A DNA stretch of 64,000 bases, taken from assembly GCF_000531125.1 (NCBI RefSeq), contig NZ_CBTK010000302.1, forward strand, positions 1 through 64,000. Direction: 5' to 3'. This document shows positions 4,840 through 22,485 of this stretch, piece after piece. The translations under genes were made by a program, and so were the position numbers. This DNA is from Candidatus Contendobacter odensis Run_B_J11. GTDB lineage: Bacteria > Pseudomonadota > Gammaproteobacteria > Competibacterales > Competibacteraceae. How positions within the stretch are numbered: position 1 is the stretch's first letter; each line of letters begins with the position of its first letter. Under the pieces are notes generated by a model. The model made no database searches and had not been told where the DNA came from. It was given only the letters and a program-made list of their open reading frames with translations.

Positions 4840-4929
4840 GGTCTTTCCTCCGAAGTTGCATAGCCGCGTATTATGGAGTAACGCGATGAAACTCGCCTTG
4901 GTTCAGACCACTGGAGCCGTCGTGGAGAG

Positions 4930-5832
4930 TTACCCATTCAGCGCCGGATCTGCTCGCAGCCTGGCGGCCATGAGATCAACAAAAGTTCTTACTTTGGCAG
5001 CGGCAGATCGCCCCTCGCGGTGTATGACGTGGATGGGTAAATGTCCCGGTTCAAATTCGCTCAAGAGGGTTTTCAACTGCCCCGATGCCAAATAGGGAGC
5101 GATCTGGTAGGACAACAGGCGAGTGATGCCGAAGCCGTGACGGACGGCTTCAATGGCAGCCGCATTGCTGCTTACGGTCAATCGGGGTTTTACCCGAACC
5201 ACGGTAGTTTGGGCATCCTGAACGAACTTCCAGTCCACGACAGGGGATACCGCGCTGGCGGCAACCATGAGGTGATTCGCCAACTCCAGCGGCGTATTCG
5301 GCTGGCCGTGTTCGGCCAGATAACTTGGCGATGCGCACACAACCTGGCGCACTTGACCGACGCGGATGGCCTTCATGCTGGAATCAGGTAATTCACCGAT
5401 CCGCACTCCTACATCAAAACCTTCCTCAAGCAGGTTCACTACCCGGTCCAGAAACAGCGCGGACACCGTCATTGCTGGATATTGTTGCAGATACTCCACG
5501 ATGCCGGGCATCACGAACATCCTGCCGAACAACACCGGGGCTGTCACCGCCAGGTAACCGCGAGGTTCCGCATGAATACCCGCTACGGCTTCGTCGGCTT
5601 CGTCCACTTCACTGAGAATGCGGCGGGCGTCGTCAAGATAGCGCTGCCCCGCTTCGGTAACGCGCACGAAGCGGGTCGTCCGATGCAGCAGTTTGACGCC
5701 CAGCCGCGCTTCAAGCGCGGCGATGGATCGGGTCACGGCGGGCGGTGACATACCGAGCCGACGAGCGCCGCCGGCGAAACCCTCTTCTTCCGCCACCGCT
5801 ACGAACACACTCATCAAATGCAGCCGGTCCAT
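4930..5832 (-). CDS. LysR-family transcriptional regulator
   Basis: A 300-residue protein of normal family length. It has an N-terminal winged helix-turn-helix (residues about 1-60; FVAVAEEEGFAGGARRLG then SPPAVTRSIAALEARLG) and a periplasmic-binding-fold effector domain (about 90-295). It resembles the small-effector LysR group in which RTTR is followed by V-x-V-T-E-A-G. It is divergent from the AhpD-like gene across a 138-bp AT-rich gap holding a palindrome, the usual layout for a LysR protein controlling the divergent gene and itself. It lies downstream of the split DAB genes on the same strand, but control of those is not shown by the sequence. The effector is unknown. Confidence 0.9.
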   Translation of the reverse strand: MDRLHLMSVFVAVAEEEGFAGGARRLGMSPPAVTRSIAALEARLGVKLLHRTTRFVRVTEAGQRYLDDARRILSEVDEADEAVAGIHAEPRGYLAVTAPVLFGRMFVMPGIVEYLQQYPAMTVSALFLDRVVNLLEEGFDVGVRIGELPDSSMKAIRVGQVRQVVCASPSYLAEHGQPNTPLELANHLMVAASAVSPVVDWKFVQDAQTTVVRVKPRLTVSSNAAAIEAVRHGFGITRLLSYQIAPYLASGQLKTLLSEFEPGHLPIHVIHREGRSAAAKVRTFVDLMAARLRADPALNG

Positions 5833-5970
5833 AGATTATTCCATTATTAGAAATAATAAATTGTAAAAAATGGATATTCTTCTCTTCAGTGGAATTTGGC
5901 AAAGTGTAGTCATTCGCAGCGCGGTGTGTGCTGCGAATCCATCAACCCCTTTGAAAATGGAGAAGCCATC
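5833..5970. promoter_or_regulatory. Divergent lysR / ahpD-like promoter region
   Basis: This 138-bp gap separates the lysR start from ATG 5971. It is distinctly AT-rich near lysR and contains the palindrome ATTATTAGAAATAAT (about 5843-5857), which fits the T-N11-A shape of a LysR box. A GGAG about ten bases before ATG 5971 serves as ribosome binding site for the rightward gene. The operator assignment is inference from shape and position. Confidence 0.5.
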
Positions 5971-6576
5971 ATGTCCCGAATTGCCATCCCGACAGTCGAA
6001 CAAGCCCCTGCTGCATCGAAGCCGCTCCTCGACGCCGTACACAAACAACTGGGCGTGGTGCCCAATCTGATGAAACTGGTCGGGCACAGCCCAGCCGCGC
6101 TTGAGGGCTATCTGTCGCTCAATGGCGCGTTGGCCAAAGGCGTGCTGGATAGCGCGTTGCGCGAACGCATCGCCTTGACCATTGCCGAGTTCAACGGCTG
6201 CGAATACTGCTTGGCCGCCCACACCTACCTGGGTAAAAATCTGGCCAAACTCAACGAGTCCGAAATTCTCGCCGCCCGCGAAGGCGGATCGAGCGAAGCC
6301 AAGGCCGATGCCGCCCTGCGATTTCTCGCCGCCCGCGAAGGCGGATCGAGCGAAGCCAAGGCCGATGCCGCCCTGCGATTCGCCCGCCGGGTCGCCAGCG
6401 AGCATGGCCGCGTCAGCGATGCCGACCTTGCCGCCTTGCGCACAGCGGGTTTCGATGACGCCAGCATCATCGAAATTGTGCTGAACGTGGCGCTGAACGT
6501 ACTTACCAACTACGTCAATAACGTTGCCCTGACCGATGTGGATTTTCCCAAGGTCGCGCTCAGGCTCGCAGCGTAA
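5971..6576 (+). CDS. AhpD-like / carboxymuconolactone decarboxylase family protein
   Basis: A 201-residue all-helical AhpD-like protein. The redox motif CEYCLAAH (Cys-x-x-Cys with a following His, after TIAEFNG) matches the peroxidase-associated disulfide centre of the family. ATG 5971 is chosen because it follows GGAG at good spacing and gives the usual N-terminus (MSRIAIPTVEQ); an earlier in-frame ATG at 5896 would add an atypical leader. Right after the active-site helix it carries a perfect 19-residue tandem duplication (LAAREGGSSEAKADAALRF twice), which keeps frame but adds a helix-sized segment absent from ordinary members. It is divergent from lysR and followed by a pyridoxamine-oxidase-like gene, suggesting a small LysR-controlled redox or detoxification cassette. 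The substrate is unknown, and the duplication may impair folding. Confidence 0.85.
   Translation: MSRIAIPTVEQAPAASKPLLDAVHKQLGVVPNLMKLVGHSPAALEGYLSLNGALAKGVLDSALRERIALTIAEFNGCEYCLAAHTYLGKNLAKLNESEILAAREGGSSEAKADAALRFLAAREGGSSEAKADAALRFARRVASEHGRVSDADLAALRTAGFDDASIIEIVLNVALNVLTNYVNNVALTDVDFPKVALRLAA
6266..6379 (+). repeat. Perfect 57-bp tandem duplication inside the AhpD-like gene
   Basis: Two identical 57-bp units (6266-6322 and 6323-6379) lie head to tail. Each encodes 19 residues, so the frame is kept. Complete identity over third codon positions points to a very recent duplication, or to an assembly duplication. Confidence 0.95.
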
Positions 6577-6642
6577 TCGGGTTGTTTTCACCAGCCGCTG
6601 GCGATGGCCCTGCATCGCCAGCCACTCTCCGGGAGAAGCCTC

Positions 6643-7245
6643 ATGCCGCGTGCATTTACCGAAATCGCTTTCACTCCCAGCGTAAAGGCTGCTCAGCACC
6701 GGTATGGCAGTCGGGAAGCCAATCATGGCCTGGAATGAGCGGAGAATGCCCACAATGAACTGACCGAGCGTGAAATGGGCTTCATCGCCGAGCGCGACAG
6801 TTTTTATCAAGCCACAGTCTCCGAATCGGGCTGGCCTTATGTGCAACATCGGGGCGGGCCGACCGGTTTTCTGAAGGTGCTTGATGAACGAACATTAGGT
6901 TTCGCTGACTTTCGCGGCAACCGCCAATACCTGAGCGTGGGCAACCTCGCCGCCAATGATCGCATTGCGCTGATTCTGATGGACTACGCGCACCGCAGGC
7001 GTTTGAAAATCTGGGGACATGCCCGAATCGTCGATGAAAATGAGCATCCCGAACTGCTGGCGCGACTCGAAACACCGTCCTATCCCGCCCGCGTGGAGCG
7101 GGGAATCGTGATCCAGGTGGCCGCTTACGACTGGAACTGCCCGCAACACATCACGCCACGTTTCTCAAGCGCGGAAGTCGAGCGGCTGATGGCGCCGCTG
7201 ATCGAAGAAAACCGCAAACTGAAATCTCAAGCGAAAGAGACGTGA
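6643..7245 (+). pseudogene. Pyridoxamine 5'-phosphate oxidase-family gene with in-frame TGA
   Basis: The natural start appears to be ATG 6643, preceded by GGGAG, giving MPRAFTEIAFTPSVKAA and about 31 residues before a TGA at 6736-6738. The same frame then continues as AENAHNELTEREMGFIAERDSFYQATVSESGWPYVQHRGGP, with the flavin-binding split-barrel pattern (GFLKVLDERTLGFADFRGNRQYLSVGNL) of FMN-binding PNPOx-like proteins. Without the stop the product would be about 200 residues; re-initiation at ATG 6775 would give 156. The residues on both sides of the stop look like one conserved N-terminus, so I read this as a nonsense mutation. It sits just after the AhpD-like gene and converges on dabA with a 4-bp gap. 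Confidence 0.7.
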
Positions 7246-7249
7246 TCGA

Positions 7250-10200
7250 TCACGAATGCTCACCGATCAAAGCGGGTGGCAACGGCTCGGTATGCCCGCG
7301 ATACCAGTCGCCGGAACGGGCACATTCAGGCAAAGGTCGGATGGATTCAGTCCACGGTACAAAACCCCGCGCCGGGTCGAAAACTGAAAATTCTCCGCTA
7401 TCCGGCTCCTTGGCGATCAGAGTAATCCACTCGTTGCCGATCAACTCCCGCAACGTCGGTTGCCGCTGATAAATGGCGGCAAGAATTTCGGTACGGGCCT
7501 CGACTACGATCTGCAAGCGCAGCGGTTCGTGAATCTCAATCATTTGTCGCGGTAGCCCGGTGCGCAGGTCGCTGCTCGCGCCTTCCATCACCGCAAACAG
7601 CCCGGTGACGTTGTGCGGTAGTTTGGTGCCGCAGCCCAGCCGTTCGTTATTCACTGTAGAAAAGTAGTATTCCAGGTTGATGCCCGCACCGACCGGACCC
7701 ACCGCCAACAGGATGTTTTCCAACACGGCGCCGCTGGGGTCTTGGGTCGGATCGTAGGAAACGAGGAACGCCCGCCGGTCCAGAAACACGCCCTGGCTCA
7801 TCGATCGGCGTCCGACTAAAGCGGCGGCGTTGGTGGCGTGGCCGAGTTCCGGTCGCGCCTGGCTGAAATCCTTGGAGCGCTCGACTACATGGCGCAAGGC
7901 TTGGGCCGGCGTGGGATGGCGCGGCGCGGCAGCAAAGCGGCGGCAGCGTTCATGCGCCGACAACGCACCCGCCTGATCCAGAATCCGTTGCAATTCCGCC
8001 AGCGCCGGTGCCAGTGTGGCTGGCAAATCGGCCCGATCAAAGACGCTGATCTGTTCATTGCAGGTATTGTGCTCAGCGCCGAGGAACCACGCATCGTCCG
8101 GGATGTGGATGCTGCGCTCGACTAACAGCACCCGTACTTCAGGACGATTCGCCATCGCGGCGAAAGCACGGGCATTAGGGCCACCGTGGCGTCCGCTACA
8201 GGCTCCGCAATCGTAAGCGGCGAGATGCGGGTTGTTCTGGCTGATCGAGCCGTGGCCCATCAGCACCACCAGCGGCGCGAATTGCGCAGTCATCCCGATA
8301 TTGCGGAGCAGGGCGGCGACCCGATCCGCCTGTTCGGCATCAGTGAAACCCAGACGCGGCTGTTCCGGGGTGGCGGGGGCGCTGTCATTGGTTGCCGCCG
8401 TGATCGCAACCTGTGTCGGCACGGTGGGCACAAAAGCGGCGTCAACCGCTGCAACGAGATCAGCCTGCCGGGTGGGGAAAAAAAGTTTACCCATCAGCGT
8501 CAGCAGCGCGCCCGGCGCCAGCGCGTTAATCAGCAGCGATGAGGACAGCAGATTGCGCCGCACTTCGTGGTAGATCGCGCGAAGCCGGCCGCGCCGATCT
8601 CGCCGCCGGTTATGCAGTGCGTACTGGGATTCGGTGCCTGCCCGCGCCACTTCACGCACTTCATGAGCGGGCGTTACCACCACCGGACACAGCGGAGTGA
8701 CCTCTCGGTCATCCAGACCCCGCCAATTCATTACCACGCCGAAGAAACCCGCTGCGCCGAGGGTTTCAATCTGCGGGTTCAGCTCTTCGATATGGCGGCG
8801 GAAACTTTCCTCCCGGTCATCAATGCAGAACACCATCTGAGCTTGCGGCCGTTGCGTTCGTCCCAGCCAACGTCGATGGTTATTCGCCAGAGCGTTGATC
8901 AGCGCATCCCGATAATGGTGTTCATAAGCGCACTGCCACAGCGCACCACGTACTGCGGATGGGAGTTCGTCCAGCGGTTCCAGCAAGTGTTCCAGATCGG
9001 CCAGGGAAAGGGTGCGCAGTTCGCCGCTGGAGAGTCCGAGATGCTGAGCCAGCCGAAACAACCGCCATGCGCTGCCATGAACCGTATGGGTTTCGGACTG
9101 CTCGGCGACCGGGCTATGCTGCCAGGTCCAAATCATGTCCGCGAGGGTATCCCAGGCGGCTTTGACTCCCCTCTCCCCTTGCGGGAGTGGGGTTAGGGGT
9201 GAGGGGATCATTCCTCTCTCAATCAGCGCCCGCACCCGACTCGCCAGATATTCGGGCAGATGTCCTTCGTACAGCGCATAGCGGATGAGCGCCTCTGCCG
9301 GGTGTGCGCTGAAATAGTCACGCAACGCGGGCAGCGTTCCCGCCACACCCCAGTTTTTGCGGCACAGATCTTCGATCCACAGGCTATCAAGGCACAGTCG
9401 TACTGCGAGGTAATCGGCCAATGCGACCGGACTTTCCTGATTGGCCGGGTAACGAGGATGGTGCTGCCGCCAGTTCATCATTCCAGACCAACCGGGTAAT
9501 TCCAGAGCGAGGCGGGTGAGATAGCCTTCCCAGCGTGATTCGGGAATTTCCAGTCGCTGGAGTTCAGCAATCATTGCATCGACCGGATCAGCGGGTAATC
9601 GGGCCAGCGCCTCGCGCCACCCAGACAGCCCCGCGAAGCTCCAGGCTTGATCACTCCCGGCGAAACGCTGCCAAGCGGCGTACAGACCCTCGACCCGACC
9701 AGGCAGATGCCACGCCGCCAATCCCTCGTCGAGGTGAGCAGCGCATAGACGAATCAAATACGGGCGAACCTGATCGAGTACATCTTGACCGGTCAGGATT
9801 CGCAGCAACCCCCGGAGCGTCAGCGCATCTCCGACATCGGCGAACAACCGTTCAAGCAATGTCAGCGCATCCGCCTGCATCCGCTGGTGAACGATGGGAC
9901 CTTGATCTTCCGCCGCACCCTCGGTCCTGAATCGCGCCAGTAACGACTTCGCCAAGCTCAGTTGCAAATCCACCAAATCTTCAGGATGGAGATTGAAGGC
10001 AGGTAATTGAAAACCCTCCAGACAGGTCCGCCATAGATCGTCCAACGCCGCGCCGACCTCCGTTATACCTTGGCACCGGGCCGCATCCCGCAGTCGCCGC
10101 CGGGCGGTCTCCGGCACATCCTGCTGAAACTGCCGGGTGGCGTCGAGTTCTTCCATGTGCCACACCAATTGATTCAGGGTCAGCGCTTCCGCCCCGTGAA

Positions 10201-10585
10201 TCAGTGCAATTCGGAGTACTTCGCCCCGGCGAATTTCGCGCTCACCCAGACGAACCAGCACCGCATCGGCCCGAATCTCCGGGCGCTGGGCAAAAACCGC
10301 CGCCAAATCCCGGTCGGTGATCCGTCCGGCCCGGTACAAGGTGTGAAATTTCTCATCGGGCCAATAAGCGTGAATCCCGGTGAGTTGCTCAGCAGCGGCC
10401 AGCGCCTGCTCAAAGGGCAGGTGCTGATAACCGTGCAGGGTGTTGTGATGGACAAAGTTCAGGATCGGCGCTTGTCCAGGCAGCACATGATCCAGGTGCG
10501 CGATGGCTCGTTCGACGATCTGGCGCGGTTCCAGCGGCGGATGAGAGGAATGAGACCCGGATCTCGTCGAGTGCGGAGTATTCAT
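7250..10585 (-). CDS. dabA: DabA-type inorganic carbon accumulation protein (DUF2309)
   Basis: An 1111-residue DUF2309/UPF0753 protein. DabA has a beta-carbonic-anhydrase-like zinc site; in the studied Halothiobacillus protein the ligands are Cys, Asp two residues later, His, and Cys fifteen after the His. Here the same pattern appears: C587 and D589 (VFCIDDREESF), H778 (LMGHGSISQNNP) and C793 (AAYDCGACSG). The N-terminal FVHHNTLHGYQHLPFEQAL is also characteristic. With a DabB-type membrane subunit it is thought to hydrate CO2 vectorially to bicarbonate in the cytoplasm. The two candidate NuoL/NuoM-like partners lie on the same strand on either side (1717-4839 and 12502-13968), each separated by unrelated genes. 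A short intergenic-type repeat has entered the frame near residue 465. The start at 10585 gives MNTPHSTRSG; upstream bases are AT-rich. Confidence 0.92.
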   Translation of the reverse strand: MNTPHSTRSGSHSSHPPLEPRQIVERAIAHLDHVLPGQAPILNFVHHNTLHGYQHLPFEQALAAAEQLTGIHAYWPDEKFHTLYRAGRITDRDLAAVFAQRPEIRADAVLVRLGEREIRRGEVLRIALIHGAEALTLNQLVWHMEELDATRQFQQDVPETARRRLRDAARCQGITEVGAALDDLWRTCLEGFQLPAFNLHPEDLVDLQLSLAKSLLARFRTEGAAEDQGPIVHQRMQADALTLLERLFADVGDALTLRGLLRILTGQDVLDQVRPYLIRLCAAHLDEGLAAWHLPGRVEGLYAAWQRFAGSDQAWSFAGLSGWREALARLPADPVDAMIAELQRLEIPESRWEGYLTRLALELPGWSGMMNWRQHHPRYPANQESPVALADYLAVRLCLDSLWIEDLCRKNWGVAGTLPALRDYFSAHPAEALIRYALYEGHLPEYLASRVRALIERGMIPSPLTPLPQGERGVKAAWDTLADMIWTWQHSPVAEQSETHTVHGSAWRLFRLAQHLGLSSGELRTLSLADLEHLLEPLDELPSAVRGALWQCAYEHHYRDALINALANNHRRWLGRTQRPQAQMVFCIDDREESFRRHIEELNPQIETLGAAGFFGVVMNWRGLDDREVTPLCPVVVTPAHEVREVARAGTESQYALHNRRRDRRGRLRAIYHEVRRNLLSSSLLINALAPGALLTLMGKLFFPTRQADLVAAVDAAFVPTVPTQVAITAATNDSAPATPEQPRLGFTDAEQADRVAALLRNIGMTAQFAPLVVLMGHGSISQNNPHLAAYDCGACSGRHGGPNARAFAAMANRPEVRVLLVERSIHIPDDAWFLGAEHNTCNEQISVFDRADLPATLAPALAELQRILDQAGALSAHERCRRFAAAPRHPTPAQALRHVVERSKDFSQARPELGHATNAAALVGRRSMSQGVFLDRRAFLVSYDPTQDPSGAVLENILLAVGPVGAGINLEYYFSTVNNERLGCGTKLPHNVTGLFAVMEGASSDLRTGLPRQMIEIHEPLRLQIVVEARTEILAAIYQRQPTLRELIGNEWITLIAKEPDSGEFSVFDPARGFVPWTESIRPLPECARSGDWYRGHTEPLPPALIGEHS
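9166..9206. repeat. Palindromic dispersed repeat inside dabA
   Basis: A C-rich half followed by a G-rich half (CTCCCCTCTCCCC ... GGGGTTAGGGGTGAGGGG) forms the short palindromic repeat commonly found between bacterial genes. Here it lies in the dabA frame and is translated on the minus strand as PSPLTPLPQGERGV. The frame stays open through it, so the insertion was tolerated or is a loop. Confidence 0.75.
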
Positions 10586-10617
10586 GGCGGCGATCCTGTG
10601 CGGAGGCGGCTAAAGAG

Positions 10618-11049
10618 TGCAGATCATTTTACACGCAGGCAACGAATCACAGGATTGGCGGCAGGGTTGTCAGAAAATTTTACACTACTAAAGCAATCAG
10701 GTTTTCACCGCTCGCCAAGGGCAGAAATTCGGGAAAAATCGCGTTTTTGGGTGGTTTATTGATCCATGGATGTGGCAGATCACCCGATTATGGCCGCTCT
10801 GCACACTGCGCCAGAAGGCGGGGTGGGCCGAGTCGCGCTGGTTTGTCAGAAAGCTTTACACCCGGTTGCAGGGCTGAAAGGCTTGCATCAAGCTGGAATC
10901 AGCGAAAAACAAGCATTCTTATGACAGAATACCACTCAATAGTCATCAACTTTATAAAAATAAAAATATAAAAATCAAATAGTTATTTTAATTTTATCTC
11001 AAAATCCAAGGATTAGCGCTTAGGCAATAAGTTGTCAGGATTTTTTACA
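10618..11049 (+). promoter_or_regulatory. Array of 17-bp boxes upstream of a PEP-CTERM gene
   Basis: The dabA/PEP-CTERM gap (10586-11175) contains three copies of a TGTCAG-centred box ending in TTTTACA or close to it: 10668-10684 (TGTCAGAAAATTTTACA), 10844-10860 (TGTCAGAAAGCTTTACA) and 11033-11049 (TGTCAGGATTTTTTACA). A degenerate fourth is at 10618-10633. The ends TGT and ACA are inverted, giving a dimer-type operator shape. The same box occurs upstream of the second PEP-CTERM gene near 35180-35374. Position 70-450 bp before a sigma-54-like promoter fits enhancer sites for an activator such as the PrsR type linked to exosortase loci; that link is inference. Confidence 0.7.
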
Positions 11050-11115
11050 GTTGATTTGCAGAGTTTTTTGGTCAGAAATTAAATAAATTATTGAAATTAA
11101 AAAACTTTGTTGAGT

Positions 11116-11130
11116 TGGTTTTTTTTTGCA
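11116..11130 (+). promoter_or_regulatory. Sigma-54-like promoter (GG / GC elements)
   Basis: TTGG at 11115-11118, nine T residues, then GCA at 11128-11130, about 46 bp before the PEP-CTERM start. Sigma-54 promoters need GG and GC about ten bases apart; here the gap is nine, one short of the copy at 35430-35443. The missing T could be real or a homopolymer miscall. Confidence 0.55.
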
Positions 11131-11175
11131 TGTTTTTGAGCCGCCTTCTAACAACAAATCAACAAAGGATTTTTT

Positions 11176-11955
11176 ATGAATCACAAGTCACTGGTTTTTA
11201 TTGCGGCGCTGGGTTTTGCCGGTGCGGCTGATGCCACGTTGATCAATCGTGGGGGCGGGCTGATTTACGACGACGTGCTGAATATCACTTGGTTGCAGGA
11301 TGCTAATTACGCGAAAACTCAGTACGACAACAGTGGTGGCGCGTTGGGCGACGCAGACGGTTTGATGAACTGGGATACGGCGAATACCTGGGCCGCGAAT
11401 TTGAGCTATTACGATAGTGTGCGTGGCGTGACCTATAACGATTGGCGCTTGCCGACGGTGAAACCGATCAATGGCGTCAGCTTCATTCCTGTTGTCGCTG
11501 GCAATGCTACAGATGGCACTCGGGACCTCGGTTACAACCTGAGTGCGCCCGGTACACTCTATGCGGGCAGTACCGGTAGTGAGTTAGCCTATATGCACTA
11601 TCAGAACCTAGGGAATATAGGCGCTTACGACACCGGTGGGACGGCAACTGAATGTCTTAATATCGCGTCTTCCTTGGGCTGCCTGGATAATACCGGCCCA
11701 TTTGTAAATCTGATGGATACCCCAGGTACCGCTTACTGGTCGGGTACTGAGTTCGAGCCTGACACCACGCAGGCGTTTTTCTTCGAAACGTATTACGGCG
11801 AGCAGGGCATCAACTACAAGAACGCCCTCTATTACGCATGGGCCGTGCGTGACGGCAATGTTACCACCCCCTCGTCTTCCGTCCCCGAACCGGGAAGTCT
11901 CGTGTTGGTCGGGTTAGGACTGATGGGATTGGGCTGGGTGCGGCGGCGGGCCTGA
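11176..11955 (+). CDS. PEP-CTERM sorted protein with DUF1566-like domain
   Basis: A 259-residue exported protein. An N-terminal signal peptide (MNHKSLVFIAALGFAGAADA) precedes a DUF1566/Lcl-C-terminal-type domain, recognised by DDVLNITWLQDANYAKT and NDWRLPTVKPINGVSF and a late AYWSGTEFEP segment. The C-terminus is the exosortase signal: VPEPGSL, a hydrophobic helix (VLVGLGLMGLGW) and RRR. Such proteins are cleaved by an exosortase and presented at the surface or in exopolysaccharide matrix. The exosortase is not in this window. The gene stands alone, with upstream boxes, a sigma-54-like promoter and a strong terminator. Confidence 0.9.
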   Translation: MNHKSLVFIAALGFAGAADATLINRGGGLIYDDVLNITWLQDANYAKTQYDNSGGALGDADGLMNWDTANTWAANLSYYDSVRGVTYNDWRLPTVKPINGVSFIPVVAGNATDGTRDLGYNLSAPGTLYAGSTGSELAYMHYQNLGNIGAYDTGGTATECLNIASSLGCLDNTGPFVNLMDTPGTAYWSGTEFEPDTTQAFFFETYYGEQGINYKNALYYAWAVRDGNVTTPSSSVPEPGSLVLVGLGLMGLGWVRRRA

Positions 11956-11988
11956 TTCATCGCCAGCAGTCTATCTGTTGCGGTATTG

Positions 11989-12015
11989 AAATGGCGGCCT
12001 GCGGGCCGCCATTTT
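11989..12015 (+). terminator. Rho-independent terminator after PEP-CTERM gene
   Basis: An 11-bp perfect stem (AAATGGCGGCC with GGCCGCCATTT) around a 4-base loop, ending in a short T tract, lies 34 bp past the stop codon. Confidence 0.85.
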
Positions 12016-12110
12016 CTTGAGCAGGGGAAACCCGTTAGGCAACGCTGTACTTTCCGACCTTTTGTATCTCACCTATCCTCAAACTACGCCGATGGCACAT
12101 CATCCATCTT

Positions 12111-12401
12111 ATGAACGAAACATTATTTGCTGAACTTCTGTCCAGTGTCGAAGAAATGGACAAAATCGTGCGCGGCGAGCTGGAGCCGGGCCGGGTTACG
12201 TCGGTGGCCGAACTCCAGGTGCGCACCATCCGCGAGAAAACCGGCCTCTCGCAAAGCCGTTTTGCGCAGCTCATCGGCGTCAGCAAACGCACACTGGAAA
12301 ATTGGGAGCAGGGTCGTCGTCGTCCTGCCGGACCGGCGCGGGTGTTGCTCAAGATCGTATCGGCGACCCCGGAGGTTGCGCTCAAATCGCTGCACGGCTA
12401 A
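12111..12401 (+). CDS. XRE-family antitoxin-like regulator (NadS/HigA type), orphan
   Basis: A 96-residue protein with an N-terminal helical arm (ELLSSVEEMDKIVRGE), then an XRE helix-turn-helix (VRTIREKTGLSQSRFAQLIG, VSKRTLENWEQGRRRPAGPA) and a short C-terminal helix. This is the architecture of NadS/HigA-like antitoxins, which normally follow a RelE/HigB-type toxin gene and repress their own promoter. No toxin frame is seen in the 95 bp before it or in the 100 bp after it, where the NuoM-like gene ends. It therefore appears to be a solitary antitoxin left from a toxin-antitoxin pair, or a stand-alone regulator. Confidence 0.85.
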   Translation: MNETLFAELLSSVEEMDKIVRGELEPGRVTSVAELQVRTIREKTGLSQSRFAQLIGVSKRTLENWEQGRRRPAGPARVLLKIVSATPEVALKSLHG

Positions 12402-12501
12402 ATCCGACTCGCTCGCCGAGAACTTTGGCAAGGCAACAGCGCGTAGCGTAAGGCAAGTTGGCGAAGCGTAACCCGCCTTTCGAGAACACACCGTCACCCT
12501 C

Positions 12502-13968
12502 CTATAGCGAATAAGTAAAGATCGTGGCTAATTCCTTGACCGTGGCGCTGAGCAGGGCGATGACCGGCGCGGGATAAAGTCCCAGGATCACCAGTCCCGC
12601 CGCCAGCGGCATCGCCGCAACCCACTCATGGGGCTGCAAATCGTGGAGTTCCCCCATAGCCGGGCGCACCGGGCCGGTGAATAACTGCCCCATGGTGCGG
12701 ACTGCGTAAGCCGCGCTGATGAGAACGCCGAGACTGGCCAATAGCATCAGCCAGCCCCAACGCTCGAAGCCGCCGATAAGAACATGCAACTCGGCAACGA
12801 ATCCGCCCAGGCCCGGCAATCCCATCCCCGCCAGCAGCGCCAGCGTCAGTAGCAGAGAAAAGCCGGGCGCCAATCGCACCAGCGCGCCGTAATCAGCGAC
12901 CTGGCGGGTGTGGGTGCGCTCGTACAGCAGGCCAATCAACAGAAACAGCGCACCGGCGATCAGGCCATGCGCCACCATTTGCAGCGTTGCACCTAACAGC
13001 CCAATCTCGTTCAGGGCCGAAATGCCGAGCAGCACTACACCCATGTGGCTGACCGAGGAATAGGCGATCATCGCCTTCAGATCACTCTGTCGCCACGCCA
13101 GCAACCCGCCGTAGAGGATGCTGACCAGCGCGATCCCGACCAGTAGCGGTTGTAGCGCCAGAGTCCCTTGCGGCAACATGGACACAACCCGCAGCAGGCC
13201 ATAAGCCCCCATTTTGAGCAGCGCCCCGGAGAGCAGAATGCTGACCGGGCTGGGCGCTTCGACATGGGCGAGCGGCAGCCAGCCATGCAGCGGGAAGATG
13301 GGGATTTTCACCCCGAAGCCGACCAGAAAAGCCAGCAGCAGCCATACCTGTTCATTACGAGGCAGGCTTGCGGCCGCTTGTGAAATAGCCGCCATGGCGA
13401 ACGATTGGGTCGGGGTGAGCCGATAGACCATGATGATGCCGATCAGGATGAAGATGGCTCCGCCCATGGTGTACAGCACAAAATTAAGGCTGGCCACATG
13501 CCGTTTTTCACCACCCCACAGGTCGATGAGAAAAAATAGCGGGATCAGAGTCAGTTCCCAGAACATGAAGAACAGCGACCAGTCCCGCGCCATGAACACG
13601 CCCAGCATGGCAAATTCCAGAATCAGCAGCCAGGCGTAGTAACCTTTCGCTCGAACGGTCACTGAGTTTGAAGCCAACAGCGCCACGGCAACGAGCAGGG
13701 TGGACAGCAGGACCATCGGCAAGGAAATCCCATCGAGTCCCAGCGCGTAGGAAACCCCGATGCTGGAACTCCAGACCACCTGTTCCACAAATTGGATCGC
13801 TGCCGTACTCCGATCAAACTGGGCAAGCAGACTCCATGACAGCACCAGAGCCAGGCCGGCATGGAACAGGGCCAGACTACGAATGATCCGATGCTGTGCT
13901 GTCGGTAACAGGACCACCAATATCGCCCCAAAGAATGGCGCCCACAGGATAAAGCTGAGTATGCGCAT
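12502..13968 (-). CDS. NuoM/MrpD-like proton-translocating membrane protein
   Basis: A 488-residue NuoM-type antiporter-like subunit with about 14 predicted membrane helices. The Glu of the family is present in FMFWELTLIPLFFLIDLWGG and the broken-helix lysines in GVKIPIFPLHGWLPLAHVEAP and LLSGALLKMGAYGLLR; LKAMIAYSSVSHMG is also standard. Length matches NuoM (about 500). No other complex I gene is adjacent, but dabA lies downstream on the same strand, followed by a NuoL-NuoM fusion. DIC-accumulation loci in some bacteria carry extra NuoM-like genes with DabA, so a role in that complex is likely but inferred. A cation/proton antiporter remains possible. Confidence 0.8.
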   Translation of the reverse strand: MRILSFILWAPFFGAILVVLLPTAQHRIIRSLALFHAGLALVLSWSLLAQFDRSTAAIQFVEQVVWSSSIGVSYALGLDGISLPMVLLSTLLVAVALLASNSVTVRAKGYYAWLLILEFAMLGVFMARDWSLFFMFWELTLIPLFFLIDLWGGEKRHVASLNFVLYTMGGAIFILIGIIMVYRLTPTQSFAMAAISQAAASLPRNEQVWLLLAFLVGFGVKIPIFPLHGWLPLAHVEAPSPVSILLSGALLKMGAYGLLRVVSMLPQGTLALQPLLVGIALVSILYGGLLAWRQSDLKAMIAYSSVSHMGVVLLGISALNEIGLLGATLQMVAHGLIAGALFLLIGLLYERTHTRQVADYGALVRLAPGFSLLLTLALLAGMGLPGLGGFVAELHVLIGGFERWGWLMLLASLGVLISAAYAVRTMGQLFTGPVRPAMGELHDLQPHEWVAAMPLAAGLVILGLYPAPVIALLSATVKELATIFTYSL

Positions 13969-15689: not shown

Positions 15690-18600
15690 CTATCGGGAAT
15701 GCCGTCTCGAACCATTCCACTCCTCGGGGTTTCGCCAGGCGCGCACCCAACCGGGAACCTCCTCGGCCGGCATCGGCCGGGCAATGGCGTAACCTTGCGC
15801 GTAATCGCAACCGAGCTGGAGCAACAAAACCCCATGTTCTATGGTCTCGACCCCTTCGGCGATAATGTCACGCTTAAAAGCGGAGGAAAGTCCTATAACG
15901 CCGCGCACGATCGCCAAGTCATCCGGGCTATCCAGCATGTTGCGGATAAAGCTTTGATCGATCTTGAGTATCTGAGCCGGCAGGTGTCTCAGGTAAGTCA
16001 GGGAACAATAGCCGGTGCCGAAATCATCGAGCGCAAACCGGACTCCCAGTTGTCGGCAATCGGCGATGATTCTGGAGAATTGCTCGATCTCATCCAAGGC
16101 CGTAGTTTCGAGAATTTCCAGTTCTAGCCACTCCGGTTGGATGCTGGAGTGATGAGCTAACAAGGCTTGAACGCGGGCCGCGAAATCCGGCTGTTGCAGA
16201 TGGCGCGCCGATATATTCACGCTGACGGGTAACGTCAGACCTTCGGCGGCCCAGACCGCCATCTGCTTCATCGCGGTCCCCAATACCCAGTCCCCCACCG
16301 TCTGCGCGAGATCAGAGTTTTCCACCACGGCGATAAAGGCGTCGGGAGGGAGAATGCCCTGTTCAGGATGCCGCCAGCGAATCAGCGCCTCGGCGCCAAT
16401 GACTTTTCCGCAGCGTATATCTACCTTGGGCTGGTAGTAGAGACAGAATTCCCCGGCGACCAAACCCTGCCCAACCCGTTCCAGCAATTCCCGATGAGTC
16501 TGCGCCCGTCGATTATGTTCCGAATCGAACAGGTGGTAACAATTACGTCCCCCTTGCTTGGCCGAATACATGGCCTGATCCGCATGTCGAAGGAGGGTAT
16601 CCGGATCGGTGCCATCGCTGGGAAAGAACGCAGCCCCCACACTGGCTGAGACCGTTACTGTCGCCGCACCCAGCGCGAATGGCGCCGACAAAGCCTCCAG
16701 GATGCGCTGCAACGCCCGCTCACCCTCATCAAGCGTGTGCAAATCATCGAGTAGCACCACAAACTCGTCACCTCCCAAGCGGGCTACAGTATCGTTGTCG
16801 CGCACACAACTCTGGAGGCGTTGCGCGACCTGGATCAGCAAATCATCCCCCGCAGCGTGCCCCCAGGTGTCATTGATGGGTTTGAAACCGTCCAGGTCCA
16901 GGTAGCAGGCAGCCAATATCCGCTGCTCTCGTTGCGCCTTGGACAAGGCAAGCTGGAGCCGATCCGCCAGCAGGGCGCGGTTGGGGAGCCGGGTTAACGG
17001 ATCGTAGTAGGCCATTTTTTCGAGCCGTTGCTGGCTTTCCTTGAGAACCGATATATCGGCAAACAAGCCCACATAGTGGATAATAACGCCTTTAGCATTA
17101 TGTACGGCCGAGATCGAGGTGATTTCCGGATAGACTTGGCCGCTTTTTCGCCGGTTCCAAATCTCGCCATGCCAATAACCATGCTCGGCGATGATTTGCC
17201 ACAGATGGGCATAAAACGCGGCATCGTGACGGCCGGATTTCAGCAACCTCGGGTTGTGGCCGATCACCTCCTCGCGCGAGTACCCGGTGATCTCCACAAA
17301 GGTCTTGTTCACATCAATGATCGTTCCAGCCGCATCCGTGATCATGATGCCTTCATGGGCATGCTCAAAGACGCTGGCCGCCAGGCGCAAGCGCTCCTGA
17401 GCGCGCTTGAGTTCGGACAAATCAACATCCAGGCGGTAGAACTCCACCTCGCTTTTACTATCCAGGGTCGGGATCACCGCATGGCTCGATAGCACTGTCA
17501 CCAGCGAGCCGTCCTTGCGCATGAGCTGCAATTCTTCTGCGGGACGAGACTTTCGGCTGGTGACTATGCTCCGTATGGCGTCGAACGCCCGCTCGCGCAT
17601 TTTCGGCGGCACGATCAGCTCCAGCAGACCCTGCCCGATCACCTCGCCGGCGGTGTAGCCGTACAGATTCTCACTCGCCTTGTTCCAATAGCGGATAGTC
17701 CCATCGGGTCCATACCCCTGAATGGCGACGCTGGGCACTTCTTCGAACAGGCTACGGAAGCGGGTTTCACTGCGACGCAGCGCTTCTTCGGCTTCCTTTC
17801 TCTCCGTAATGTCCTGCACGGTTTCCATAGCGGCGACAATATGGCCCTGGCTGTCACGGATCGGGGCGGCGGTAAAAGAGAGCCACTTTTGTACCGTGGG
17901 ATAGTAACCTTCCCCTTCGTAAACGAGTTCGGAGAGGATTCGGTTGTGGACGCTGGCGCCGTAATACCTTTCGATTTCCTTGGGATCGACGCCTTCCAGC
18001 ACCATATCAATCAAGCAGGGGCGCGGCGAGTCGTAAAACGGCTGCCAGTAATCCCGCGTACCCATCATCCGTTCGGCGGATACTCCGGTCATCACTTCAC
18101 AAGCGCGGTTCCAATGGGTAAGTCGATGATTGCCGTCAATGACAAACAACGGGATTGGACTACCATCCAGAATGTTCCGCAGGCGCGTTTCACTCTCCGC
18201 CAGCGCCCGTTCCGCTTCCTTACGCTGAGTAAAATCCTGCACGCTTTCCATGGCGGCGACGATCTTGCCCTGGCTATCGCGGATCGACGTAGCCGTGAAA
18301 AAGATCGATTTCCCCAATCTTGGGAAGTAGCCTTCTCCTTCAAGGATCCGCCCGGACAACCCCTGATCCCGGACGCTGGAACCGTAATACCTCATCACCT
18401 CACTAGAATCAGCGCCTTCCAGCACTACATCGACCAAACAGGGACGCGGCGAGTCGTAAAATGGACGCCAATGATTTCGGGTGCCGATCATTTCTGCAGC
18501 AGGCATCCCGGTCATTGCCTCACAGGCTTGATTCCAATGCGTGATCCGATGCTCCAGGTCAATCACAAACAGTGGGATCGGGCTGCCATCCAGCATACTT

Positions 18601-19238
18601 TGCAGGCGTGTCTCGCTCTCCACCAGCGCCTGTTCCACCGCTATGCGCTGAGTAAAATTGCTGGCTGTAATCACGACGCCTTCAAATTTACCCTGGGCGC
18701 TGTGGAAAATTTCTGCTCCCACCCGAAATATTCCCGCTACCCTTCCAGCCCGGTTCAGCAGTTCATGTTCCTCCAGATAGCTCCTCCGCCCGGCAATCGT
18801 TTCAACCCAGACCGAAGCCGATACCACCCGCCGCACCGGCAATGCGCGCTCGTATGCGGCCAGCACCTCTGGCGGCAGCAACACGTCCACCATGATTCCC
18901 AGAAGCGCATCCGGTCCATATCCCAGTTCCCGATACGTCGCCGCGTTGGCCTGCACGATCACGCCCTCTGGATCGGTGACTATCAGCGCATCCCGCATAC
19001 TGGCCAGCACCCGCCGCACCAGCTCCGACAGTTTCTGCTCGCGTTTCACCACCTTATCGAGGCGATCCCGCTCCGCTCTGACCTCTTCGATGACGCGATC
19101 CATGCGTCGGGTCAGGGAAAGGAGCGTGTTGTCCCGGTTCGCCACAATCCGACGCAACGCCGCGATTTCTTCCAAAAGCTGGTCTCTGGACGGAATTACC
19201 TGACCTTGTTCTAGCGGAATCAAACCAGAACTGATCAT
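15690..19238 (-). CDS. Five-PAS GGDEF-EAL protein, output of the hydrogenase operon
   Basis: A 1182-residue soluble protein with no membrane helix. It has an N-terminal coiled coil (about 10-70), five PAS modules (about 75-190, 208-330, 335-455, 465-575, 590-705), a GGDEF domain (motif GGDEF at 822-826, with LDLDGFKPINDTWGHAAGDD) and an EAL domain (EAL at 950-952, LKIDQSF, FALDDFGTGY). Both catalytic signatures are intact, so it may make and break c-di-GMP. PAS2 and PAS3 are a tandem duplication with shared strings such as FYDSPRPCL. Its start overlaps the hydrogenase protease gene by 4 nt (ATGA), so it is translationally coupled to a sensor-type [NiFe] hydrogenase. I infer that a PAS domain or the coiled coil receives the hydrogenase signal, in place of the histidine kinase used by HoxBC/HupUV systems. 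Confidence 0.9.
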   Translation of the reverse strand: MISSGLIPLEQGQVIPSRDQLLEEIAALRRIVANRDNTLLSLTRRMDRVIEEVRAERDRLDKVVKREQKLSELVRRVLASMRDALIVTDPEGVIVQANAATYRELGYGPDALLGIMVDVLLPPEVLAAYERALPVRRVVSASVWVETIAGRRSYLEEHELLNRAGRVAGIFRVGAEIFHSAQGKFEGVVITASNFTQRIAVEQALVESETRLQSMLDGSPIPLFVIDLEHRITHWNQACEAMTGMPAAEMIGTRNHWRPFYDSPRPCLVDVVLEGADSSEVMRYYGSSVRDQGLSGRILEGEGYFPRLGKSIFFTATSIRDSQGKIVAAMESVQDFTQRKEAERALAESETRLRNILDGSPIPLFVIDGNHRLTHWNRACEVMTGVSAERMMGTRDYWQPFYDSPRPCLIDMVLEGVDPKEIERYYGASVHNRILSELVYEGEGYYPTVQKWLSFTAAPIRDSQGHIVAAMETVQDITERKEAEEALRRSETRFRSLFEEVPSVAIQGYGPDGTIRYWNKASENLYGYTAGEVIGQGLLELIVPPKMRERAFDAIRSIVTSRKSRPAEELQLMRKDGSLVTVLSSHAVIPTLDSKSEVEFYRLDVDLSELKRAQERLRLAASVFEHAHEGIMITDAAGTIIDVNKTFVEITGYSREEVIGHNPRLLKSGRHDAAFYAHLWQIIAEHGYWHGEIWNRRKSGQVYPEITSISAVHNAKGVIIHYVGLFADISVLKESQQRLEKMAYYDPLTRLPNRALLADRLQLALSKAQREQRILAACYLDLDGFKPINDTWGHAAGDDLLIQVAQRLQSCVRDNDTVARLGGDEFVVLLDDLHTLDEGERALQRILEALSAPFALGAATVTVSASVGAAFFPSDGTDPDTLLRHADQAMYSAKQGGRNCYHLFDSEHNRRAQTHRELLERVGQGLVAGEFCLYYQPKVDIRCGKVIGAEALIRWRHPEQGILPPDAFIAVVENSDLAQTVGDWVLGTAMKQMAVWAAEGLTLPVSVNISARHLQQPDFAARVQALLAHHSSIQPEWLELEILETTALDEIEQFSRIIADCRQLGVRFALDDFGTGYCSLTYLRHLPAQILKIDQSFIRNMLDSPDDLAIVRGVIGLSSAFKRDIIAEGVETIEHGVLLLQLGCDYAQGYAIARPMPAEEVPGWVRAWRNPEEWNGSRRHSR

Positions 19239-19699
19239 TGGCTATCTCCCAATCGAAGCAGGCTGGCGATTTTCGCCACAGCCAAGGGAATCGCACCTTC
19301 CACCGCTGGAGAAAGCCCGATTTTAAAAACTTCGATGGCTGCTATCGTCACTGTCACCACCTTGATCGGTGGGAGCGAACCCCATTCGGCTCGCGCCGAC
19401 TGCAACGCAAACCGAAGATCCGCTTCATGGCTGATTCTCCCATTCATTCCCGTTTGGAGAACCGCTTCGGCGCCATGGACGGAAACGTGACCCACGAATC
19501 CATTCTCGCAACACAATGCGTCCACCAACACGGCTTCCACGCAGCCTTCCAACAAGCGGGTCAGTTCCAGCGCATGGGGTAACTCCATCACTTGAATGTC
19601 CTTGGGCAAGCGAAGTTGGCGCAGTTCCTCGGCAATACGCGGCCCAACGCCATCGTCACCGTGCAAGGAGTTGCCGAAACAGAACACGCGCCGCGCCAA
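19235..19699 (-). CDS. [NiFe]-hydrogenase maturation endopeptidase
   Basis: A 154-residue member of the HyaD/HycI/HoxW protease family. It begins with the family motif FGNSLHGDDGVG (nickel-sensing acidic residue within GDDG), followed by VEAVLVDALC and the C-terminal TIAAIEVFKIGLSPAV. These peptidases remove the C-terminal tail of the large subunit after nickel insertion. The gene sits 2 bp after the large-subunit gene and overlaps the GGDEF-EAL gene, so all are one unit. Its presence matches the C-terminal extension on the large subunit, which is unusual because studied H2-sensor hydrogenases lack the extension and do not need the peptidase. Confidence 0.88.
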   Translation of the reverse strand: MARRVFCFGNSLHGDDGVGPRIAEELRQLRLPKDIQVMELPHALELTRLLEGCVEAVLVDALCCENGFVGHVSVHGAEAVLQTGMNGRISHEADLRFALQSARAEWGSLPPIKVVTVTIAAIEVFKIGLSPAVEGAIPLAVAKIASLLRLGDSQ

Positions 19700-19701
19700 A
19701 G

Positions 19702-21219
19702 TTAAACTCCAAAGCGGACTCGACTACCGGAATCGAGGAAATGAACGGTGCAGACCAGGCAGGGATCGTGAGAGCGGATGACATGGCCGATTTCCAGCGG
19801 ATCCTCGGGATCGGTCACCGGAACCCCGATGAGGCTTTCTTCCCAGTGCCCGCGAACGCCGTTGCTGTCGCGGGGCGATGCGTTCCAACTGGTCGGGGTG
19901 ATAATTTGATAGCGATCAAAAACGCCGTTGCGAATACTGACCCAGTGCCCCAGCGCGCCACGGGCGGCGGTCAACATCCCCGCGCCTTGTCCATCTCTTT
20001 CCATATCTCGCAGCGCCGGGACGCTATGCGGCTCGTCGCTTCGCGCCGCCAATTGGTTGAGGGTCTGGCGCAGGAACAGCAGCAGTTTTGTCATGCGCCG
20101 CACTCGCGCCAGTTGGCGCAACCACGCACTGCCTCCCTCGCGACGATAAAGGTCTGTAATCAGCGGATCGCCGTCCACCAGCAGATCAGCGAGCGGACCG
20201 GTTTGCATCGCCACGCCACCGTAGCGGGGGGCCTTGGCCCACGAGTACCGGTCGCTGGCCGGCTGGTAATCCGGCACGGTCTCCCCATCAAAAGGGTGTT
20301 TACCGCCTGGATATGGACGGAACCAGGAGTGGCGCACATGCTCGCTAATCTCGGCCGGTTCCAAAGGAACCGCCGGGTATCGGTCTCCAAACAGCGCGCC
20401 AGGAGCCATCCAGTGGGTCTGGCCGTGGGTCGGTTCAGGCAAAATGAAGGCGCCGTAAGAAAGCATGTGCGCGGAACCGAAACCCATGGCCGACAGGCCG
20501 GCGAAGCGGGCTGCCTGTGAGAGCAGCGCCAGGGCCGCAGCCGGTCGTTCCATCACCCATTCTTCAAATTCATCGCCATGGGCGAGCGCCAGCCAGGCCT
20601 CAAGGTCACCGCCGAGAATGCGCTGCTCCACCCAGCGCGTGATCTCGGCAATGATGCTTTGACCGTCGACAATTCGACGTATTGTTGCTTTAACCGTTAC
20701 GCCACCCGGCACCATGTGAGAGGAGTGCGGCCACTGCCCGGCAAACAGCGCTACGATTTCGGTGACGCGCCGGGAATAGCGCAGGGTTTCCAGATACATC
20801 CATCCTTGGAAGGGGGTAAACGCCGCGATGACTGCATCCCGCACCGGCAGATCAGCATAACGGACATGACAGAAATCCGGCGTAAAAAACAGAAAGGTCT
20901 GGCGTAGATCACTTTGGATGATTTCCGCCATAAGAGTGGCATTGCGGATATGCACGGCGTTCGTGGGTGGAGCGACCTCCCAAGCCTGTTCCAGGGCGCA
21001 GACGGCGGCGTAAAGCTGGGCTGTGCTACAGATCCCGCAGATGCGGGGGGTAATCACCAGTGCGTCCAGGGGGGAGCGAGCGATCATAATCTGCTCGAAG
21101 CCCCGGTAGGTGGTCCCCACGCAGCGCGCGTCGGCCACCTGCCCGTCCTCGGTCTCTACCTGGAAGGTCAGATCCCCTTCCACTCGGTTCAAGTCGAGAT
21201 CAAGGGTGTATCGCGCCAT
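19702..21219 (-). CDS. [NiFe]-hydrogenase large subunit, H2-sensor type
   Basis: A 505-residue catalytic-type subunit. Nickel ligands are present: RICGIC (C61, C64) and DPCLVCTVH (C487, C490, H493). Three positions match those known for the Ralstonia sensor HoxC (E13, D15, Q67): here NRVEGD gives E14 and D16, and RICGICSTAQ gives Q68, where ordinary enzymes have His in IEGH and in RICGICxxxH. This strongly suggests a regulatory, slow-turnover hydrogenase of group 2. After H493 it keeps a 12-residue tail (FLDSGSRVRFGV), and a maturation protease gene follows directly. It is soluble, 3 bp from the small-subunit gene. The downstream PAS-GGDEF-EAL gene makes c-di-GMP the probable output. Group 2c (sensory, signalling-linked) is the likely class, from memory of the published classification. 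Confidence 0.92.
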   Translation of the reverse strand: MARYTLDLDLNRVEGDLTFQVETEDGQVADARCVGTTYRGFEQIMIARSPLDALVITPRICGICSTAQLYAAVCALEQAWEVAPPTNAVHIRNATLMAEIIQSDLRQTFLFFTPDFCHVRYADLPVRDAVIAAFTPFQGWMYLETLRYSRRVTEIVALFAGQWPHSSHMVPGGVTVKATIRRIVDGQSIIAEITRWVEQRILGGDLEAWLALAHGDEFEEWVMERPAAALALLSQAARFAGLSAMGFGSAHMLSYGAFILPEPTHGQTHWMAPGALFGDRYPAVPLEPAEISEHVRHSWFRPYPGGKHPFDGETVPDYQPASDRYSWAKAPRYGGVAMQTGPLADLLVDGDPLITDLYRREGGSAWLRQLARVRRMTKLLLFLRQTLNQLAARSDEPHSVPALRDMERDGQGAGMLTAARGALGHWVSIRNGVFDRYQIITPTSWNASPRDSNGVRGHWEESLIGVPVTDPEDPLEIGHVIRSHDPCLVCTVHFLDSGSRVRFGV

Positions 21220-21222
21220 GGT

Positions 21223-22158
21223 TCAAGGCTCCATCTCACGGCGGATCAACCGTTCTGGCGCCGCTTCCCGGGCCAGGTCCTTATAGGCCATATAATGGGA
21301 TCGCTGCACGCCAAGAGGAAGCCGCAGGGGAATATGGCCGATCTTCTCGGTCAGAAACAGGGCGCCTTCCCGTGGAAACTGAGGCGACGTACAGCCGAAG
21401 CACGGCACGCCCGCCCGAGTTTTGCTGCTGCGGCCATTCCACAATTCCTGATTGCAGGTCGCCAACGTCAGTGGCCCCTGACATCCGACATTAAAAAACA
21501 TACAGCCTTGACCGCCCAAGGTCACATCCTCAAGATCGTATTCGTGATATTCGTTGCGGGTGCAGCCCTGATGGACTGTGGTGGTGAAAAAAACGGAAGG
21601 GCGTTGCCATTCATCCAGCGTCACCGGCAAGCCACGGAGCAGGAACGCTAGAAATTTGGTAATGGCGTTCGGGTGGGTGGGGCAACCGGCCAGATTGATC
21701 ACAGGGAATCCGCTCCTGCTCCGCCACGTAGAAGGCAACAGACCGCCTGGAGAATCCTTGTCGAACTGCATGCCCAGACAGTCGGCAGGATTGGGCGCCG
21801 CCGCATGAACGCCGCCATAGGCGGCGCAGGTCCCTACTGCCAGGACGTAGGTAGCCGTCTCGGCCAGTTCTGCGATGACGTCCTTCTTGCCCCGACCTCT
21901 CAGCGGATCCCATAACCCGGTATTTCTCGGACCCGTGATCAGACTGCCTTCGACACAAAGAATGTCCAGCGTAGTCTGGCCGCTGGTGATCGCAGTAATC
22001 ATTCGCTCCAGACGCCGCGTCGAGCCTACGGATAACGAAGGTTGCCAGAGCAACTCAAGCCCCTCCTCAACAAGCTGCTCTAGGGGTGGGTTGTCGGCGC
22101 ACAGCAACGACAGGGTGTCACCGCCGCAGGCTCCCGCCTGCATCCATAACAATCGCAT
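21223..22158 (-). CDS. [NiFe]-hydrogenase small subunit, cytoplasmic
   Basis: A 311-residue FeS subunit. ATG 22158 is chosen because AGGAGG lies just upstream and the product then starts MRLLWMQAGACGG, as in group 2 small subunits; a longer frame to 22314 has no such support. There is no twin-arginine signal peptide, so the enzyme is cytoplasmic. Proximal-cluster cysteines include C11 (GACGGDT) and those in VGTCAAYGG and NLAGCPTHP; Asp replaces the second Cys of the usual C-x-x-C, as Asn or Asp does in group 2 enzymes. Distal (HQGC ... GGQGC ... VGC) and medial (CNQELWN ... PCFGC) ligands are complete. It is the first gene of the four-gene unit, behind a sigma-70-like promoter. Confidence 0.92.
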   Translation of the reverse strand: MRLLWMQAGACGGDTLSLLCADNPPLEQLVEEGLELLWQPSLSVGSTRRLERMITAITSGQTTLDILCVEGSLITGPRNTGLWDPLRGRGKKDVIAELAETATYVLAVGTCAAYGGVHAAAPNPADCLGMQFDKDSPGGLLPSTWRSRSGFPVINLAGCPTHPNAITKFLAFLLRGLPVTLDEWQRPSVFFTTTVHQGCTRNEYHEYDLEDVTLGGQGCMFFNVGCQGPLTLATCNQELWNGRSSKTRAGVPCFGCTSPQFPREGALFLTEKIGHIPLRLPLGVQRSHYMAYKDLAREAAPERLIRREMEP

Positions 22159-22257: not shown

Positions 22258-22485
22258 GTCGGTGGGAATAAAATAGGAGAGAATTGCAATGCGTCCGGCA
22301 TCAAACGGACCCATAGCTTAGAAGGGCGGTCCTGGGACAATCCTGCAAACGGCTGAAGGCGGAATCCAAAGGCCAGGTGTGGATAGAAACCCGGTCGCGC
22401 ACCCAGTGAGGCCCCTTTCAATCCCTGCATATCGCCTCCGCATCCTTAATGTCCCGCATAGGACGATAAACCCGATGATCGCTCA

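Follow-up and report, generated by a model that had tools for sequence, protein, structure and literature searches.

Organization of the hydrogenase operon

The window (the whole 64,000-nucleotide stretch of DNA analysed here) contains an operon of four minus-strand genes separated by gaps of 3 bp and 2 bp and then overlapping by 4 nt, an arrangement given in the preliminary description and confirmed here from the ORFs and Pfam; all coordinates given below for the operon and its features refer to the minus strand. The first gene encodes a 311-aa hydrogenase small subunit (21223..22158; Pfam Oxidored_q6 and NiFe_hyd_SSU_C) with no Tat signal or membrane anchor; its start at 22158 was chosen from relatives (MRLLWMQ), and an earlier in-frame ATG exists at 22314. 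It is followed by a 505-aa large subunit (19702..21219; Pfam NiFeSe_Hases, 277 bits), which contains both Ni-ligating CxxC motifs and is of group 2c type by its clade placement, and by a 154-aa maturation protease of the HycI/HupD type (19235..19699; Pfam HycI protease), which has a TTG start and keeps the metal-binding D, D and H positions. The last gene encodes a 1182-aa signalling protein (15690..19238) recognized by Pfam, with five PAS stretches, a GGDEF domain (16542..17012; Pfam 172 bits) and an EAL domain (15774..16469; Pfam 239 bits). Motif checks found the GGDEF motif and RxxD inhibition site of the former and the catalytic motifs of the latter to be intact; as both output domains look active, the sequence fits H2 either raising or lowering c-di-GMP.

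At the four-gene operon, neither a signal peptide nor a gene for cytochrome b or for a quinone-reducing partner was found, nor were the uptake accessory genes of the Huc-type group 2a set (NifU, NHL and TPR) found within it, and promoter and terminator scans returned nothing beyond shuffled sequence. The genome also encodes separate group 1-type hydrogenases and HypD. Gene order is kept among relatives down to 45–60 % large-subunit identity, indicating that the arrangement is not due to chance. The large subunit is 79 % identical to that of L009 (Candidatus Contendobacter/Competibacteraceae), and 7 of 39 Competibacteraceae genomes returned a match (six at 74–100 % identity, one at 38 %), so the operon is sporadic within the family.

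Two further features of the window were noted. A few kb from the operon, a DabA inorganic-carbon transporter (7250–10585, minus strand; 868 bits) is flanked by NuoL-like (1717–4839, minus) and NuoM-like (12502–13968, minus) proton-channel proteins and a LysR regulator (4930–5832, minus), and this stretch (1717–13968, minus) is a possible CO2-uptake cluster. A HAMP-PAS-GGDEF protein (59508–62270, minus) is another c-di-GMP enzyme of the window and has no relation to the hydrogenase operon.

Residue signatures of the two subunits

Alignment confirmed that E14, D16 and Q68 of the large subunit correspond to E13, D15 and Q67 of HoxC; these residues had been put forward as setting sensors apart from catalytic hydrogenases, a role in which they failed. 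The Glu is universal, Asp occupies the D16 position in all group 2 rows of the tree set (83 large subunits), uptake group 2a included, and residue counts indicate that Q68 (21016..21018) is lineage-specific and no clade marker: the clade has His at this position in 37/41 members and Gln in 4/41, the nearest Competibacteraceae have His, and group 2b has Gln (25/25). The three residues were therefore rejected as proof of a sensor. The glutamine of RH itself 'seems not to be involved in H2 sensing' (PMC5665086).

The window large subunit carries Q68 together with I63 and F111, which occupy the gas-channel positions of HoxC I62 and F110. I63 (21031..21033) is matched by Ile in the clade and in groups 2a and 2b and by Val in group 1. 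At the gate position, where F111 (20887..20889) is a bulky residue, counts gave Phe (24) or Met (17) in the clade, Phe (24) or Tyr (1) in group 2b, and Leu in group 2a and group 1; F111 is a better mark than E14, D16 and Q68.

For the small subunit, the best solved match is the Huc small subunit (7uur_D, E value 6.5e-80). The clade alignment revealed a proximal-cluster motif, C11-G-G-D14 (22117..22128), in which Asp replaces the second cysteine; position 14 is Asp in 34/41 and Glu in 7/41 members of the window's clade, and outside the clade it is Asn in group 2a (10/10) and Cys in group 2b (20/20). The acidic residue is likewise a better mark than the large-subunit E14, D16 and Q68.

The same comparison placed a 12-residue C-terminal extension (FLDSGSRVRFGV; 19705..19740) after DPCLVCTVH in the large subunit. 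The extension and the protease gene are found across the clade; group 2b large subunits stop at the His. In the Dechloromonas lineage (L021, L027, L035 and L058; also L020, L022 and L060), the protease is fused in-frame to a PAS-histidine kinase-receiver protein, which in L058 includes an Hpt, and the metal-binding residues of the protease are retained in the aligned members of these fusions.

Phylogenetic placement of the large subunit

A maximum-likelihood tree of 55 rows recovered the window's clade as monophyletic (support 100/97), with group 2a as its sister (98/94). Constraining the clade to group 2b in this tree gave an AU p value of 0.042, whereas an 83-row quick tree did not reject the grouping of the clade with group 2b (p=0.70). 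The clade thus seems to lie nearer to uptake group 2a than to HoxBC/HupUV, but its sister group differs in weight between the two trees and is not settled. The HoxC group is separated from the window's clade at 100/100, and the window large subunit falls outside the HoxC/HupV clade; by this placement, it belongs neither with the group 1 uptake enzymes nor with HoxC. The expectation that the large subunit would stand apart from uptake enzymes was neither contradicted nor clearly borne out: it belongs to a clade of its own, but one nearer to uptake group 2a than to group 2b. The clade includes the Methylobacter enzymes that have been described as group 2c (PMC12810054, PMC4853749). L014 was among the rows of the 55-row tree; L016 and L039, the latter from Methylotuvimicrobium buryatense 5G and belonging to the same kind of operon, were in a larger tree.

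Signalling partners and their input module

A signalling protein is encoded directly downstream of the hydrogenase, or after the protease, at all 42 checkable loci, i.e. those with enough downstream sequence; several of these come from one genus and so are not independent, and three (L036, L038 and L040) have broken reading frames. Partner start codons were assigned by nearness to the protease stop codon. The outputs comprise 17 GGDEF-EAL proteins, two GGDEF proteins, 16 histidine kinases and seven protease-fused kinases, and output type has switched several times on the hydrogenase tree. The idea that a GGDEF-EAL gene is kept beside the hydrogenase in relatives hence stands for 17/42 loci, but elsewhere the partner is GGDEF alone or a histidine kinase. 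One genome (G429) encodes two clade hydrogenases, one adjoining a GGDEF protein and the other a histidine kinase (L134 and L135). The Methylobacter partners had seemed to lack the catalytic Glu of the EAL domain, a reading that was rejected, as the pattern match fell in the coil and the true motif is intact.

The window's GGDEF-EAL protein begins with an input module (aa 15–207; 18618..19196) defined by alignment, profile searches and AlphaFold2 and consisting of a helix of ~63 residues and the first PAS domain (PAS1); alignment showed this module to be common to the GGDEF-EAL and histidine-kinase partners. A profile built from GGDEF-EAL partners only matched the kinase partners at 120–159 bits, and a profile built from Vibrionaceae kinases matched the window protein at 78 bits. 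Partners of the f215 lineage carry a diverged module (~33 bits at best with the GGDEF-EAL-partner profile) and offer weaker support for a shared module. The AlphaFold2 model (pLDDT 87.7) comprises a helix (4–66, 63 residues) and a PAS fold. The PAS1 model resembles the PAS domains of FixL, NifL and DosP, but a cofactor site was not found in it. One row from a plasmid record was excluded entirely from the alignments used for structure modelling.

Module searches, with full scoring limited to at most eight candidates in each genome, covered 369 Gammaproteobacteria genomes, and among the matches listed only three genomes returned full-strength matches (216–233 bits); each of these adjoins a group 2c-type hydrogenase, and the three genomes are those with such a large subunit. 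HoxJ-type kinases beside HoxBC rank next among the matches listed for Gammaproteobacteria, and 10 of the other 28 matches listed adjoin group 2b hydrogenases; across 399 genomes of the phylum, ~14 of the 31 second-tier matches listed lie near a group 2b hydrogenase. Unrelated coil-PAS kinases in other genomes of the phylum score 55–82 bits, overlapping the HoxJ-level range of 50–80 bits, which weakens the case for HoxJ-specific homology from score alone; kinship of the input module with the HoxJ N-terminus is therefore likely rather than proven. Similar coil-PAS signalling proteins (58–82 bits) occur in genomes G483, G501, G508 and G420 (L165–L167), where a group 2 hydrogenase was not found; L166 and L167 have the coil-PAS stretch inside the protein, following a receiver-like domain.

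Six partners start with a Rieske [2Fe-2S] domain scoring above the Pfam cut-off (Methylobacter L014 and L016; Methylomonas L028, L033 and L133; and the kinase L032). These represent two output types, and the four cluster ligands (CxH...CxxH) are present in all six. A model of the L016 Rieske domain (pLDDT 84) returned Rieske proteins as its best match (E value 0.004, TM ~0.5). The domain is absent from the window's own partner and from 36/42 partners overall. Where present, it gives the input module a redox centre at its leading end, a hint that the signal may be passed on as electrons.

A putative H2 sensor linked to c-di-GMP

The HydDB entry for group 2c reportedly follows Greening et al. 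2016. HydDB (2016) describes the group as 'Diguanylate cyclase-linked (putative) ... May sense H2 and regulate processes through cyclic di-GMP production' and lists it with 'Undetermined role' (PMC5037454), and a link to a c-di-GMP enzyme has thus already been predicted (PMC5037454, PMC4853749). The preliminary description was right to call the system poorly described, although the link had been predicted by name. Experiments on a group 2c system, or on Rieske or protease fusions, were not found in the searched literature, which covered few subscription papers, and the comparative points on the input module, the fusions and the cluster ligand appear to be new.

We consider it likely that the operon encodes a group 2c cytoplasmic H2 sensor, the state of whose clusters is read by the GGDEF-EAL protein through contact with its helix and PAS1, thereby setting c-di-GMP. 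H2 would enter the Ni-Fe site via a channel narrowed by I63 and F111 and be split slowly; electrons would pass into the chain of clusters in the small subunit, the proximal one of which has an acidic residue (Asp14) at its fourth ligand position; the helix and PAS1 would dock on the small subunit and read its redox or conformational state by direct contact; and the PAS array would relay the change to the GGDEF and EAL domains, setting how much c-di-GMP is made relative to how much is degraded. The sequences show the operon, its domains and intact catalytic motifs, the conserved pairing and a common input module with exchanged outputs, whereas the role of H2 as signal, the docking, the redox step and the direction of any change in c-di-GMP are parts that we infer. 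The original proposal of a sensor-type group 2c hydrogenase wired to a c-di-GMP enzyme via the PAS region is upheld by the signalling gene downstream at every checkable locus and by the shared coil and PAS1 module. The sensor reading draws on these points, the input module being homologous whatever the output, and also on the full-strength module matches in the searched Gammaproteobacteria, which adjoin group 2c-type hydrogenases, on the ternary complex for H2 sensing that HoxJ makes with RH (PMC10073562), on the Phe/Met gate as in sensors, on an operon without signal peptide, cytochrome b or quinone-reducing gene in a genome with separate group 1-type hydrogenases and HypD, and on the six Rieske partners. 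Against it stand a large subunit nearer to group 2a, the retention of a cleavable extension and protease, unlike the 2b sensors, the matching of the module by unrelated coil-PAS kinases, and a window partner that lacks a Rieske domain.

A version of this reading that overlaps with it, and to which we give somewhat less than an even chance, is that the same sensor signals not by conformation but by handing electrons to a redox centre within the partner, be it a Rieske cluster or another cofactor. The N-terminal Rieske domains on partners of both output types, the likeness of PAS1 to the PAS domains of FixL, NifL and DosP, and the description of the RH electron acceptor as 'yet unknown' (PMC5665086) are consistent with this, but most partners lack the Rieske domain and PAS1 yielded no cofactor site. 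A broader, rather speculative proposal is that the 2c and HoxBC/HupUV sensors might share one docking helix and PAS1 as a plug-in, with electrons as the signal and a fused Rieske domain as their acceptor in some lineages.

The position of the clade beside group 2a, the fact that the nearest solved structure is Huc, an oxidiser of atmospheric H2, and a C-terminal extension and protease like those of uptake enzymes would also suit a hydrogenase descended from group 2a that takes up H2 at a low rate, with the GGDEF-EAL protein merely co-transcribed and responding to something else. We regard this as improbable, given an operon without an electron-acceptor gene, a signalling protein paired with the hydrogenase in every relative, mostly through the same input module despite differing outputs, and a gate of Phe/Met, not Leu. 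Sensing of O2, CO or general redox state via the Ni-Fe site or clusters, rather than H2, would fit the altered proximal ligand position, the PAS domains and a searched literature in which H2 data for any group 2c system were not found, but is unlikely, given that the two pairs of Ni ligands and the protease gene are retained and that the gate residues are like those of O2-excluding sensors.

If the H2-sensor reading is true, c-di-GMP would be under the direct control of H2 in methanotrophs and Competibacter-type bacteria; if the Rieske domain is the acceptor, H2 oxidation itself would switch the kinase or c-di-GMP enzyme. Whether regulatory hydrogenases relay the H2 signal by shape or by electrons has been a standing question since HoxBC was described. 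The shared module, the Rieske- and protease-fused partners and the clade-wide change of cluster ligand provide concrete parts to mutate, and the Rieske domains on some partners make the signalling route testable.

Comparison with known systems

The operon resembles group 2c as described in being of group 2 type, cytosolic and adjacent to a diguanylate cyclase/phosphodiesterase, and the Methylobacter 2c enzymes belong to the same clade. The clade differs from that description in extending beyond cyclase-linked members, with histidine kinases at 23/42 loci, and in its Rieske- and protease-fused partners and acidic proximal ligand, which were not found in the searched literature.

Huc, the group 2a enzyme of Mycobacterium smegmatis (PDB 7UTD/7UUR), is the nearest solved relative of both subunits, with which it shares the RVEGD motif and a small-subunit proximal cluster without the full Cys set. 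However, Huc has Asn and [3Fe-4S] clusters, a Leu gate (in Huc-type rows), HucM and menaquinone, and no signalling partner.

The HoxBC/HupUV sensors of group 2b, which act with HoxJ/HupT, are likewise of cytoplasmic sensor type and have the Ile/Phe gate, and the helix and PAS1 of the partner align with HoxJ. In contrast to these sensors, to which the large subunit is only ~35–40 % identical, most clade members have His for Gln, and the clade has Asp or Glu for Cys at the proximal cluster, keeps the C-terminal extension and protease, and is coupled to different outputs.
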